Source: Reticulascus tulasneorum (lineage: Eukaryota; Ascomycota; Sordariomycetes; Glomerellales; Reticulascaceae). Taken from it: a DNA stretch of 64,000 nucleotides. This document shows, in pieces, positions 1,575 to 19,955 of this stretch. Where the stretch lies: contig LSAX01000003.1 of NCBI GenBank assembly GCA_001557505.1, positions 2,046,001 to 2,110,000 on the forward strand. Direction: 5' to 3'. Below the pieces are notes generated by a model, which was not told where the DNA came from, searched no databases, and worked only from the letters and a program-made list of their open reading frames with translations. Positions within the stretch are counted from its first letter, which is position 1. Each line of letters starts with the position of its first letter. The position numbers and the translations under genes are program-made.

Positions 1575-3183
1575 ATGGAGTATGACCTAGTTATCACCAA
1601 CGGCGTCTGCGTCACAGCCAGTGATGTTGCGGCATATGATATCGCAGTGAAGGATGAGAAGATTGTCCTTCTCAGCCCATCAGGCTCATTGGCCTCCGCA
1701 AAATCAAAACGAACCATAGATGCTGAAGGCGGCTATGTCATGGTGAGGGTTCCTTGTATATACTCAGCGTTGGGGTTGTTCGCTAACACCCGGAAGCCAG
1801 GCGGAATCGACACCCATGTTCATCTAGAAGAACCAGCAATCTTCATCAAAGGGTCGTCAGGACGGTCGGCAGACAGCTGGGAGACCGGTAAGAATCCACG
1901 ACATCTCCAGTCTTGAAATGACTTCTCATTCGACCACAGGCACGAGGTCAGCTATTGCAGGAGGCAACACGACAGTAGTGGCATTCGCTCCCCAGCAAAA
2001 GCACCAAGATTCCTTGCTCGCCGCCGTGGAAGCAACTCATAAACTCGCCACAGGGAACTGCTACTGCGACTACGGCTTCCATGTGATCGTATCTAATCCC
2101 GGCGAGAAGGCATTGTCGGAATTCAAGCAGCTCAAAGAGGAGGAGGGCATCAGCTCGCTGAAGATCTATATGACTTACACAGCTCTGCAACTCCGAGACA
2201 ACGAGATCCTGTCGATTCTGCTCAAAGCTCGGGAATATGAGATTCTCACCATGATACATGCCGAGAATGGTGATGTGCTTAACTGGCTGACCGATCAACT
2301 CGAGGCACAACAACTTTTCGCACCGAAGTATCATTCCAACTCCCGGCCGCCGATTCTTGAAGCGGAGGCGACGAATCGAGCCATCGCGTTGTCGTCACTG
2401 ATTTCAAACACGCCAATTCTGCTGGTACACATCAGTGATCCTAGCGCTATGTTGCGCATCCGACAAGCGCAGAACCTGGGGCAGCCGATCATGGCTGAGA
2501 CTTGCCCACAATATCTTTTCCTGACCCGAGATGATCTCGACAAGCCGGGTTTCGAGGGCGCAAAGTGCGTCTGCTCACCCCCGCCGCGAAACAAGGCGGA
2601 CCAAGATTCCATCTGGGGTGGACTGAAGAATGGCACGTTCACGGTTCTGAGCTCCGATCACTGCCCGTTCAAGTTCGAGGACATCGAGGCGGGCAAGAAG
2701 TCTTGCATCACGCACGAGCATCCAGTAGGCCGGTTTCGGTATATCCCGAACGGCCTGCCGGGTATCGAGACAAGACTTGCAATGGCGTTCTCGGCTGCTA
2801 GGCTGGCACTGACGAAGTTCGTGGAGGTCACGTCAACGAATGCGGCGAAGCTGTACGGGCTGTATCCCAAGAAAGGGGCGATCCTCCCAGGGGTTTCTGA
2901 TGCGGATCTGACTGTGTGGTACCCGGACGGCAAGCTGGCAGAGTTCGGGATCACCAATGAGATGCTTCATCACGATGTGGACTACACGCCGTTCCAAGGG
3001 AAGCAGGTGCGCAACTGGCCGCGCTATACTATTATTCGCGGTCAAGTCGTCTGGGATCGTGATAACGGTGGTATAACTGGCAAGATGGGATATGGGCAGT
3101 TTGTCAAGCGCGGTTCCAGTAGCTTGGGGAGGATGTGGGAGACAGTCCAAGAGGAAGGGAAGTTCGATTTGGAGGCCCTATAA
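1575..3183 (+). CDS. PYD2: Dihydropyrimidinase / D-hydantoinase family cyclic amidohydrolase
   Basis: Three exons (1575-1742, 1797-1887, 1940-3183) encode 500 residues, the normal length for dihydropyrimidinase. The introns are 54 and 52 bp, and splicing joins MEYDLVITNG... to PGGIDTHVHLEEP and then to GTRSAIAGGNTTVV. The amidohydrolase metal ligands are visible: the HVH pair at residues 63 and 65, the lysine that becomes carboxylated at about 161 (SSLKIYMTYT), His at about 193 (MIHAENG), His at about 250 (VHISDPSA) and Asp at about 326 (SSDHCPF). The enzyme hydrolyses dihydrouracil and dihydrothymine to N-carbamyl beta-amino acids, the second step of reductive pyrimidine breakdown. A hydantoinase with other cyclic ureide substrates is possible. 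No other pyrimidine-pathway gene is adjacent, so the exact substrate is inferred from family. Confidence 0.93.
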
Positions 3184-7074: not shown

Positions 7075-8221
7075 GGAATGCGTCATATACCGGCGATGAG
7101 AACGATTCACCTTTCATAGCCCCACCTGGGGCTATTTTATGACTATTGAGGCAGCTGTGTCTGCCACAGCCAAGGAAGTTCGTACGTCCGCTTCAACCTC
7201 TACCGGCAGCACCGACAACAGACATGCCGAGATGAAGGAGGTTGACGACGACGGTTGGTCCGAGGACAAGCACAGGAGATTGTACGAGATTCAAATCTCA
7301 AGTGCCATATGTTCTGAGACCAATGTCCAACCCCGCAACAGGCTTAATGCGCAGCTGAAGTGCGCCGCAGAATTTGGATTCTACCCAAGGCGTCCCTTGC
7401 TTGAATGATGATCTTGGAAGGACAAGCCATGGACTGGACCAGGACGGGACTCGGAACGAGTTCTTGTAAGGCATTTACAAAGGCGTTTTGGCGGGGCTTT
7501 ATGGCTGAGGTAATGGACAGCCAGAGGAGTGTGTGCATGGGGGTTGATTGAACATGTCTTGGACACAGTACTGAATGATGATATGATGAACACGGTACTC
7601 GGTCCAAGCTAAGAGAGAGATTTCAGAGGACATGCTGGGCCGGGGGGCGAACTGTACCATTATCAGATGAGAGCCAGGGGGAGAGAACAGAAACCTTTTG
7701 CGTCCATTTTGCCGTCTGCTTGAGAATGTCCAGACTTGCTGAGCAGGAACTTGACTCATGGACGCCTTAAGATTTCCAACGAGAACATATGTGAGCAATA
7801 CTATCTGAGGTCTCAGGGCGTTTATCTTGTGCGTCTTCAAGTCAGAGCAAACATTTGCAATCTTACCACAGACGACCCTTGCTCCTTGGTTCAAGCTTAC
7901 CAAGGACAACCACCCACAGATGCTTGAGTTCTGGATATAGTAAGATGGGATCTACATAACCCCCTAGACTCCAACATCGCTAGTAGAGAGTATCCGCTCA
8001 TTGATCCCACTTGTGCCTCCACTCCCACCCGTACAGCGACGGAGGGAGTTGGAAACGTGGGGGACGTGGAGGCATAACCCCGCCATCACACCATTGAAAA
8101 ACCTTCCCCCTCATATCTCTGCCAATTTCAGTCCTGTCAACTTGATTGCAAGCCTGTTCAGACCCAAACGAGCATCTAGCGCTATGGACACGAAGCAAAA
8201 AAAGCAGCAAAAAAAGTAGGA
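7075..8221. other. Intergenic region between the arrestin-like gene and tRNA-Leu
   Basis: No convincing gene is seen. An open frame at 7139-7408 begins soon after the arrestin stop but has no family resemblance and is most likely 3' untranslated sequence. The right end, read on the minus strand, holds the tRNA terminator. Confidence 0.4.
8209..8215 (-). terminator. RNA polymerase III terminator of tRNA-Leu
   Basis: On the minus strand a run of seven T begins six bases after the discriminator base of the tRNA. A second T7 run follows about 6 bases later (8196-8202). A T-run this long close behind the 3' end is a standard polymerase III stop, and it argues that the tRNA gene is functional. Confidence 0.85.
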
Positions 8222-8263
8222 TGACAAGAGTGGGATTCGAACCCACGAGGTTTCCCACTGCGG

Positions 8264-8285
8264 AAAGTTTTGGGTTTTGATCAAA
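8264..8285 (-). other. Canonical-position tRNA intron (after base 37)
   Basis: This stretch of about 22 nt separates TTTAGG of the anticodon loop from the final loop base and the 3' anticodon strand CGCAG. Leucine-UAG tRNAs of other fungi also have an intron at this site, which the SEN endonuclease removes. The intron can form a short hairpin with the preceding bases (GGTTT with AAACC). The exact ends could shift by one or two bases. Confidence 0.75.
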
Positions 8286-8302
8286 CCTAAACACAGCGCC
8301 TT

Positions 8303-8358
8303 CTATACAATAATTAGAGGGGGCATTTTCAGGTGAGTGGATTTCGGCTGGTACATAC
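8303..8358 (-). other. 56-bp D-loop insertion with spliceosomal-intron-like ends
   Basis: The insertion follows GAGTGGTT of the D-loop and precedes AAGGCG. It starts GTATGT and ends TATAG on the tRNA strand, and has CTAAT (fits CTRAY) about 10 bases before the terminal AG. Its 56 bp falls inside the 49-59 bp range of most pre-mRNA introns in this window, two of which also start GTATGT. Exact removal gives GAGTGGTTAAGGCG, the consensus leucine D-arm. The insert also carries CCACTC, an exact complement of the upstream GAGTGG. It lies just 3' of the A box, so the internal promoter is spared. How, or whether, it is removed from the RNA cannot be told from DNA. Confidence 0.8.
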
Positions 8359-8378
8359 AACCACTCGGCCATCTTGCC

Positions 8379-8930
8379 TTGCATCATCTGAATTAAAATT
8401 TCGCTTATTTGGTTTTAATAAGCTTGACTGGGACACCAGACCAAATTTGGTGGGGGTTCTAGGTTTGTCCATTCTGATCTGTACTTAGCTCTCTTGTCAG
8501 TAAAGTTAGTTGTGAGGATTCCTTGGGAGCTAGACAACGGATCTAAAAAGAAGCTTTCGAAATAAACATAAGACAGCATTGACTAAGCTCGAGATATCAT
8601 TCTTCTCCAAGTTAACTAGATATGAAGTGAGGTAGCTTGTTAGATCACTCGTTGTGTTGTTGACGATGAGGGGCAACCGTTTTGAAGGACTCCACATCGA
8701 AATTCTCCGACTCACGGCGCACCATTGGAGCTTGACTCAACTTTCTGCTTCCAACCAGCTAGGACAGTAGCAAACCACAACTCCGGGCATCTATGTCCAT
8801 AACAAGCCTACAATACTTACCAACGATGCGGTGACATTTTCTTTGTAGCGCATAGACAAACCACGGTCTAACTTTGCGCTGCGCATCGACCCCCTCCAAA
8901 AAAAAAACCTCCCGTCATATTCTTTCGAAG
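8379..8930. promoter_or_regulatory. Divergent spacer between tRNA-Leu and SEN54
   Basis: The region must hold the upstream sequence of the tRNA gene (to the left) and the promoter and leader of SEN54 (to the right). No open frame of interest is present. A short A-run lies just upstream of the SEN54 start. Confidence 0.45.
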
Positions 8931-18412: not shown

Positions 18413-19955
18413 TTAATCATGTTTAACCTCATCCCCGGCCGTCTTCGCCGTCTCGTCCGCTTCAGCCCCTGTTTTCTTCACCGCCGCGTCCGCCGCATCC
18501 GCCTCATAGCCCTCGACCTTCATATCGGTCAACCCCAACTCCTCCTCCTCCTCGGCTGTCCGGTCGTAAAACTCTTTCGTGATCTGCGGGTCGGGGGCGG
18601 GCGGATCGACCAAGGACTGGACATAGCTACTGGCGAGGGGATCGGCCAGGATGATCGTAAACTTCCTTTCGCCCTTGATCGCCTCATCCAAGCCGGCAAA
18701 GAAGTCGCTCCACCGCGTCTTCTCGCCGAGGTCGAGCGAGTCGCCTCCGCCGTCGGTGTTGCCGTCCGCCTGGAAGATCTGGTTGTGCAGGTCGTTTCGG
18801 ACTTGGGTGAGCAAGCCCTCGACGGTGGTGAACCGACCACCGAGCGTGCCGGGGTTGACGGAGAGGTTGAGCTCGGGGCATTCGAGCGCGCACGTCTCGC
18901 TCTTGAGGATGTCGCGGGCGAGGTCGGTGGGGCTCTGCACGGCCAGGACGATCTTCTCGCCCTTCTCGGGGATCTCGCCGCCCGTCTTGACGTCGTTGGA
19001 GCGATAGCCGCAGTCGTCGCACACCGTGGACATGAGGACGACCTGTTTGAAGTGGGGGATGTCCACCATTTTCATGTGGGTGGTACAGGCGTGCATGCAA
19101 CCTGGACAGCTGGCCGGGAAGCTGTACACTTCGTTGGGGACGATGTCCTCCTCCTCTGGCGCTCCATTGGTTGTTCCGGCGGCGGCATCGGGGTTTGTGG
19201 CTGAGAGGCCGAGGGCCTCGTTCTGTTCTGGCGTCCGGGCGTACTCGTGCTTCTCCCACTTGCCGACGCCGTCCTTCAGATCTGGCGCGATGAAGGAGTT
19301 GCCAGCTGGGTCGTCGATCGTCATCCGGAAGGGGAACGCATTGCCTGCCAGCATGGCGTGGCCCTTCACTATGATCTCTGACACCTTTGTGTACACATCC
19401 GGAGTCTGTTCTTTCCGCGCATCTTGCCCCAGCTCCAGGTCCTCTATGATACTGCTCAGCACGCCCTCGACATTTGAAAGCTGTCCTCTCCCCGCTGGCA
19501 CCTCGACATCCAGTTCAATAAACTTGATGGTCGCGCTATCAGACTTGACGACTTGCCGCGCAAAGTCGGGAAGGGCTGTGAGTCGCAATTCGTAGTGGGT
19601 ACCCTTGGGCTGGACCGAGCCGGCTGGCTGAGCCTCGTTGTTTTGAAAACCGCAGTGCTCGCAAGAGAACGACATGAGTATGATTTCGCGAAAGTAGGGG
19701 ATCGAGGTGAGGAGGAGTCTGGTAATTCCCTAAAGAACAAGTTAGTTACGTCTTTAGTTAGGAGAACCATTTGTAGCTTACATTCTTGCCGCAGTTCATG
19801 CACAGAGATTCGATTTCATCAACAACCTTCTGATCGTCTGCCCCGCCATCATCACCATCGGTTCCGTTTGTAGCTGGGGCGAATTGCTGGACTTTGTCGC
19901 CGATAGACTCGAAGAACGCGGACGGTGTGATCTTGGTTTCTTGAGGTGCAGCCAT
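18413..19955 (-). CDS. ZPR1: Zinc finger protein ZPR1
   Basis: Two exons (19955-19782 and 19729-18413) encode 496 residues. The 52-bp intron has donor GTAAGC and acceptor TTTAG and joins ...LCMNCGKN to GITRLLLTSIPYFREI. This completes the first zinc finger with cysteines at residues 52, 55, 81 and 84. A second finger (CPGC ... CDDC) follows in the middle of the protein, with the typical text HMKMVDIPHFKQVVLMSTVC. Both halves have the ZPR1 repeat structure of a zinc finger plus a beta-rich domain. ZPR1 binds translation elongation factor eEF1A, for which it acts as a folding chaperone, and it moves between cytoplasm and nucleus. The acidic and alanine-rich C-terminus (EAD, AADAAV) is less conserved. 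The next gene upstream (stop at 20,257) is on the same strand, about 300 bp away. Confidence 0.96.

Follow-up and report, generated by a model that had tools for sequence, protein, structure and literature searches.

On its minus strand, the 64-kb stretch of DNA analysed here (the window) carries a tRNA-Leu(UAG) gene of 157 bp (8222..8378), in which cloverleaf parsing places two introns; all parts of the gene given below lie on this strand. Exon 1 (8359..8378) comprises the 5′ strand of the acceptor stem, the 5′ strand of the D-stem and the D-loop up to GTGGTT. It is followed in the D-loop by an ectopic 56-nt insertion with GT-AG ends (8303..8358), the full sequence of which is GTATGTACCAGCCGAAATCCACTCACCTGAAAATGCCCCCTCTAATTATTGTATAG. 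The insertion bears a candidate 5′ splice site GTATGT (8353..8358), a branch-point-like CTAAT (8313..8317), the A of which lies 11 nt from the 3′ end, and a candidate 3′ splice site TAG (8303..8305). Exon 2 (8286..8302) contains the rest of the D-arm, the 5′ strand of the anticodon stem, the anticodon TAG and G37. A canonical intron of 22 nt at position 37/38, of the SEN type and without GT-AG ends (8264..8285), separates it from exon 3 (8222..8263), which contains position 38, the 3′ strand of the anticodon stem, the variable arm, the T-arm, the 3′ strand of the acceptor stem and A73.

The 5′ part of the gene reads GGCAAGA-TGGCCGAGTGGTT-(56 nt)-AAGGCG-CTGTG-TTTAGG-(22 nt) and continues after the 22-nt intron as C-CGCAG-TGGGAAACCTC-GTGGG-TTCGAAT-CCCAC-TCTTGTC-A, followed by TCCTACTTTTTTT. 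By sequence reading, an intact A-box TGGCCGAGTGG (8361..8371) is located upstream of the insertion, the B-box GGTTCGAATCC occupies 8233..8243, and a T7 run resembling a pol III terminator lies at 8209..8215. Removal of the 56 nt restores GGCCGAGTGGTTAAGGCG and a full cloverleaf, with 7/7 pairs in the acceptor stem and 5/5 in the T-stem. Our parse, which puts the insertion at exactly 8303-8358 of the minus strand, bears out the first-pass annotation, which had described there a D-loop insertion with the same ends and CTAAT motif, restoration of the D-arm upon excision, and intact boxes, paired stems and T7 run. The 22-nt anticodon-loop intron (8285-8264) was absent from it. ARAGORN called no tRNA in the 64-kb window, and an Rfam cmscan of the window returned nothing above the gathering score.

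Introns of protein-coding genes in the window

Two mRNA introns of the window are supported by homologues. The ZPR1 gene contains an intron of 52 nt (19730..19781, minus strand; GTAAGC..CTAAC..TAG), around which the tblastn matches of two homologues stop at 19782 and restart at 19729. The dihydropyrimidinase gene contains another intron of 52 nt (1888..1939, plus strand; GTAAGA..CAG) without a CTRAY motif, where the tblastn pieces run to 1889 and from 1936, and the only GT-AG in range keeps the frame. Our comparison with mRNA introns rests on these two, because a motif scan of the window gave 89 candidates versus 115 in the reversed sequence and hence no excess. Set against this mRNA set of two, both of 52 nt, the ectopic tRNA introns described below measure 51–60 nt. 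The resemblance in size to the mRNA introns of the window, as proposed for the 56-bp insertion in the first-pass annotation, thus holds for the two homologue-supported introns and gains nothing from the motif scan. For two protein queries, the named best matches come from Sordariomycetes such as Colletotrichum and Hypoxylon, a class that also makes up most of the matches listed, and among the 120 protein matches listed per query none exceeded 79% and 81% identity, respectively.

Ectopic insertions in tRNA genes across the genome

The genome (42.8 Mb in 35 contigs) was screened with Rfam RF00005, D-arm patterns and B-box-plus-terminator patterns. The candidates were then parsed into cloverleaves by a program run with and without one ectopic excision, and by eye where the program failed. 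The RF00005 search is not exhaustive: uninterrupted genes, among them L096, L117 and L137, came only from the B-box patterns. For one B-box pattern about 100 of 124 places were covered, those beyond being GGTTCGA-type matches on the last contigs with T or G as the next base, and for two further patterns all places were covered; only pattern matches resembling a T-arm plus acceptor by eye were taken further. Among 65 loci, the parser accepted 25 without and 15 with an ectopic intron and left 25 unparsed. The census of 42 genes consists of 24 genes without an ectopic intron from the parser, Ala(UGC) (L155) and 17 genes with ectopic introns, 14 of which come from the parser and three (L099, L115 and L121) from parsing by eye, L121 having been transferred from the parser's set without ectopic introns. 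L111 was counted as lacking an ectopic intron despite an anticodon loop without U33. L101 (score 10.5, GC-AG ends, no tRNA by eye) was dropped, and the Gly-like L093, the Asn-like L139 and the Asp-like L149 and L150 were left out.

In total, 19 ectopic insertions were found in 17 of the 42 parsed nuclear tRNA genes. These numbers are lower bounds for the genome and do not give an unbiased fraction, because the screens need an intact B-box and miss genes interrupted in the T-loop. The interrupted genes are spread over nine contigs (C1, C2, C3, C6, C12, C15, C17, C25 and C35). The insertion sites comprise the D-arm, 26/27, the variable loop, the T-stem and both the stem and the loop of the anticodon arm, and none of the 19 as placed occupies position 37/38. 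The D-arm is interrupted in Leu(CAA), Leu(CAG) and Leu(UAG) of the window, and the D-loop in both Lys(CUU) genes, in Arg(ACG), in one of two Leu(AAG) genes and in one of two Ile(AAU) genes, the other Leu(AAG) and Ile(AAU) genes being interrupted at 26/27. The insertion of Thr(UGU) lies in the anticodon stem, that of Gln(CUG) just before the anticodon, and those of Ser(AGA) and Ile(UAU) inside the anticodon, the last being the weakest placement of the set. Lys(UUU) is interrupted in the variable loop and Asp(GUC)-2 in the T-stem. Pro(CGG) carries three ectopic introns, in the D-loop, inside the anticodon and in the T-stem. A canonical intron is also present in 14 of the 17 interrupted genes, and Pro(CGG) thus has four introns.

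Few nuclear tRNA genes were found, usually a single one for each anticodon represented, and repeated tRNAs of mitochondrial appearance are present on many of the small contigs. The B-box-dependent, non-exhaustive screens returned no gene for Phe, Tyr, His, Val(AAC), Val(CAC), Pro(AGG), Arg(UCU) and others, and only one doubtful gene for Asn. L139 (C34:273300-273630) resembles Asn(GUU) and has no recognisable 5′ acceptor strand or 5′ half; upstream of it, part of its D-arm is repeated in inverted orientation, and our impression is of a bacterial or organellar sequence. L093 (C1:1596290-1596620) has a perfect acceptor and, after the anticodon stem, an insertion starting with GTAAGT with no AG at the expected end, and is perhaps a pseudogene. 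The related pairs L119/L132 and L097/L131 show A- and B-box-like motifs and T-runs with no tRNA parse, and are possible pol III non-coding RNAs.

Splice-like signals of the ectopic insertions

The 19 insertions are uniform in length (51–60 nt, mean 55.2, SD 2.6), with 38–110 nt allowed by the parser. Their end dinucleotides are given by construction, since the parser admitted only GT/GC-AG or ATAA-AC ends; as such, 18 of the 19 read as GT-AG and Leu(CAG) as ATAAGT...CAC, so that the first base is G in 18 and A in one, the last base is G in 18 and C in one, and T2 and A-2 are present in all. The other motif counts are partly by construction, as starts of the GT[AG][ACT]G type and CTRAY motifs raised the parser score: G5 is found in 19/19, a YTRAY with 10–14 nt after its A in 19/19, and CTRAY in 16/19. 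For CTRAY, 2000 shuffles gave 1.1 on average and 6 at most.

As a check free of this bias, excisions of 40–75 nt were ranked by cloverleaf restoration without splice motifs. In 14 of the 19 cases no excision was better than the annotated one. Better-scoring excisions exist in the remaining five: between 2 and 23, out of 2502–3114, for Leu-CAA, Leu-UAG of the window, Ile-UAU and two introns of Pro. Ties number 712 for the second Pro intron. For Leu(UAG) of the window, 2 of 3006 excisions scored better by one point and 22 equally, with one GT-AG among the 22 equal-scoring ones. The 56-nt junction taken alone is therefore not uniquely fixed, and the case for this intron is drawn from the other 18 insertions of the genome. 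In seven introns the ties are limited to 1–4 excisions, a GT-AG being among them in six. For the remaining one, Leu(CAG), the cloverleaf alone fixes a single solution, ATAAGT...CTAAC...CAC. An A in the first and a C in the last position is a nucleotide pair usable by U2-type spliceosomal introns.

Some placements and genes depart from this pattern. L121, the Lys(UUU) gene, has a better parser score without the ectopic intron (27.9 vs 25.8), L099 and L115 were not parsed by the program, and the five introns of these three genes were placed by eye. In the intron of Leu(CAA), TTAAT is the sole branch motif, and a TTTTT within this intron could act as a pol III stop. A depletion of T-runs would be expected if pol III transcribes the ectopic introns, but none is clear from the counts; T5 occurs once versus 1.7 expected, and T4 four times versus 4.9 expected. 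The genes show the features of functional tRNA genes, namely a full cloverleaf after excision, A and B boxes and a T-run, with the exception of Leu(AAG)-1, the A-box of which is split by the ectopic intron.

Comparison with canonical tRNA introns and SEN substrates

The ectopic introns differ from the canonical ones of the same genome. Among 27 canonical introns compared, which lie after base 37, none has GT-AG ends, none has CTRAY, and the lengths are 9–31 nt; the set omits the 111-nt intron of L111 and the duplicate L113, and the canonical introns of L099, L106, L121 and L138 were placed by eye. In archaea and red algae, SEN-type cleavage of a bulge-helix-bulge removes introns at non-canonical positions, and the first-pass annotation had offered cutting by SEN at such a site as one explanation. 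Ectopic introns in the D-, anticodon and T-arms are indeed described for Cyanidioschyzon merolae and nucleomorphs (PMC4090602, PMC9602550). At the junctions examined here, in the strict register, 0/19 combine a central 4-bp helix with flanking helices of at least two pairs. The number of central pairs, with a mean of 1.7/4, is near the shuffle level of 1.5 (SD 0.2), one D-loop intron of Pro having all four. In addition, uniform length, G5 and a branch motif play no part in cleavage by SEN, and neither GT-AG ends nor CTRAY occur in the 27 canonical introns. We accordingly reject the archaeal-type bulge-helix-bulge in its strict register, the one form covered here, and consider SEN cleavage at the ectopic positions very improbable.

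Uninterrupted copies and gene function

The insertions might instead have broken the tRNA genes, with intact copies serving the cell. Yoshihisa's review notes that eukaryotic D- and T-arm insertions mostly hit a single gene among numerous synonymous ones, and that the genes hit are presumed to be pseudogenes (PMC4090602). In the present genome, a BLAST search with the joined exons returned all 17 source loci. In 15 of them the match was split at the junctions into at least two pieces; for Leu(AAG)-1 and Asp, in which the other exon measures 15 and 23 nt, it was a single piece. For 16 of the 17 genes this search found no uninterrupted copy, where very divergent or unassembled copies would escape it. 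The first-pass annotation had tied a pseudogene reading of Leu(UAG) to several intact genes elsewhere; genome searches match only the locus in the window. All nuclear Lys genes found (CUU twice, UUU) and all Ile genes found (AAU twice, UAU) are interrupted. Furthermore, stems are still paired and excision restores the cloverleaf. Both Lys(CUU) genes specify the same 73-nt tRNA, and double changes between the Ile(AAU) copies preserve pairs 7-66 and 52-62, as read by eye from the alignment.

Observations on Asp speak for the pseudogene reading. Outside the source loci, one match alone was both full-length and uninterrupted, an Asp-like copy of 81% identity with a changed T-loop (C15:804677-804748), and another Asp(GUC) gene, L116, carries a canonical intron only. 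Asp(GUC)-2 may be a dying copy. L115, L149 and L150 form an Asp-like tRNA cluster (C15:800,640-804,830) made up of a copy with the T-stem intron, an uninterrupted one with the changed T-loop, and a degenerate inverted copy of the intron-bearing 3′ half. For the 17 genes as a set, loss of function is very unlikely to explain the insertions.

With regard to other small RNA genes, one U6 gene and 14 5S genes exceed the Rfam cut-off, all full length and uninterrupted, which counts against the spliceosomal reading, with one further weak match below the cut-off in each case; interrupted copies could escape these searches.

Relatedness of the insertions

A further proposal of the first-pass annotation was an introner-like element. 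A reading as recent transposon-derived introns that happened to land in tRNA genes concerns the origin of the introns and not their removal. The insertion sites differ, even between paralogues such as the Leu(AAG) and Ile(AAU) copies, and therefore suggest repeated gain. The stretch 8250-8500, which contains the window intron, is single-copy and has itself as the sole match in the genome; the genome-wide copy search covered this stretch, and the 19 introns were compared among themselves. At E < 0.5, matches of 9 nt are all that the introns have in common outside the duplicated Lys pair. An introner family common to the 19 introns is not supported by these comparisons, and a recent transposon-derived origin carries little probability. 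An alignment of the D-loop introns of the two Lys(CUU) genes has 62 columns, of which 47 are identical, and both introns keep GTAAG, CTAAC and CAG. By eye, these introns, of L090 and L129, also contain the hairpins GTCACA/TGTGAC and ATCACA/TGTGAT, which differ by a paired G-C to A-T change. An assembly or sequencing artefact has a negligible chance, as the 17 loci on nine contigs share their anatomy and differ in intron sequence.

A proposed model for tRNA maturation

Insertions, splice-like signals and restored cloverleaves are present in these genes, and uninterrupted copies are absent within the sensitivity of the search. Together, these observations argue that the 56-nt insertion is a U2-type spliceosomal intron in a working nuclear tRNA gene and one of at least 19 in at least 17 genes, a reading to which we assign a probability of nearly 0.9. 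The spliceosomal alternative raised in the first-pass annotation thereby gains from the common length, ends and branch-like motif in 17 genes and from the dissimilarity to canonical introns, all read from sequence.

We infer that pol III would start from the A and B boxes and transcribe the gene as far as the T-run. Excision of the ectopic GT-AG (once AT-AC) intron by the major spliceosome in the nucleus would follow and restore the tRNA body, and SEN, measuring from the folded body, would only afterwards remove the canonical 37/38 intron in the 14 of 17 genes that have one. According to a review, SEN is believed to take its measure from the body of the tRNA (PMC4090602). Such measuring should be impeded by about 55 extra nucleotides in the D-arm, anticodon stem or T-stem, so that the ectopic intron is most likely removed first. 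A similar order is supposed for C. merolae, where the D- and T-introns, of the bulge-helix-bulge type, would leave before the anticodon intron (PMC9602550).

The wider reading is also likely, if somewhat less so: the major spliceosome would be a required tRNA-processing machine in this organism, and spliceosomal introns would have spread through nuclear tRNA genes to the D-arm, the anticodon, the variable loop and the T-stem. Among them would be a U2-type AT-AC intron, and Pro(CGG) would combine three spliceosomal introns with one SEN intron. Lys and Ile decoding would then depend on the spliceosome, and two unrelated machines would act sequentially on one pol III transcript.

Discussion

The U6 snRNA, a pol III transcript, and the U3 snoRNA of fungi are known cases of mRNA-type introns in a small structured RNA. 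By comparison, the hosts described here are tRNA genes, they are many, the introns occupy many positions, and mostly a second, SEN-type intron is present. Unlike the intron-bearing U6 genes of fungi, the U6 gene above the Rfam cut-off is uninterrupted in this genome. Ascomycete nuclear rRNA also contains spliceosomal introns of the mRNA type in a non-coding transcript, there rRNA instead of tRNA; nuclear rRNA is a product of pol I, and neither it nor tRNA is made by pol II. A 1993 paper on an mRNA-type intron in fungal nuclear 18S rDNA is cited in PMC11782384. A 2017 paper names U3 and U6 as the sole small structured RNAs in which introns had so far been found frequently (PMC5832005).

Among tRNA introns, the canonical 37/38 introns co-occur with the ectopic ones and differ from them in length, position and signals, as described above. 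The introns of tRNA-Ile(UAU) of C. merolae have a bulge-helix-bulge, which is absent here in the register tested. The ectopic introns of the Guillardia nucleomorph measure 3–24 nt, whereas those described here measure 51–60 nt and carry splice signals. We found no earlier report of spliceosomal introns in nuclear tRNA genes in the accessible portions of the open-licence literature.

Textbooks assign tRNA splicing to an enzyme other than the spliceosome, and a 2026 review counts it as independent of the spliceosome (PMC13149111). Standard finders are blind to genes of the kind described here, as ARAGORN was in the window, and may overlook them in other genomes. If the tRNA genes described here need the spliceosome, the two splicing worlds would not be divided by gene class or polymerase. 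The AT-AC intron of Leu(CAG) would be a natural change of the first and last nucleotide pair in a tRNA, and the gain of spliceosomal introns in any nuclear transcript would become a testable question. Translation in this organism would then depend on the activity of the spliceosome.
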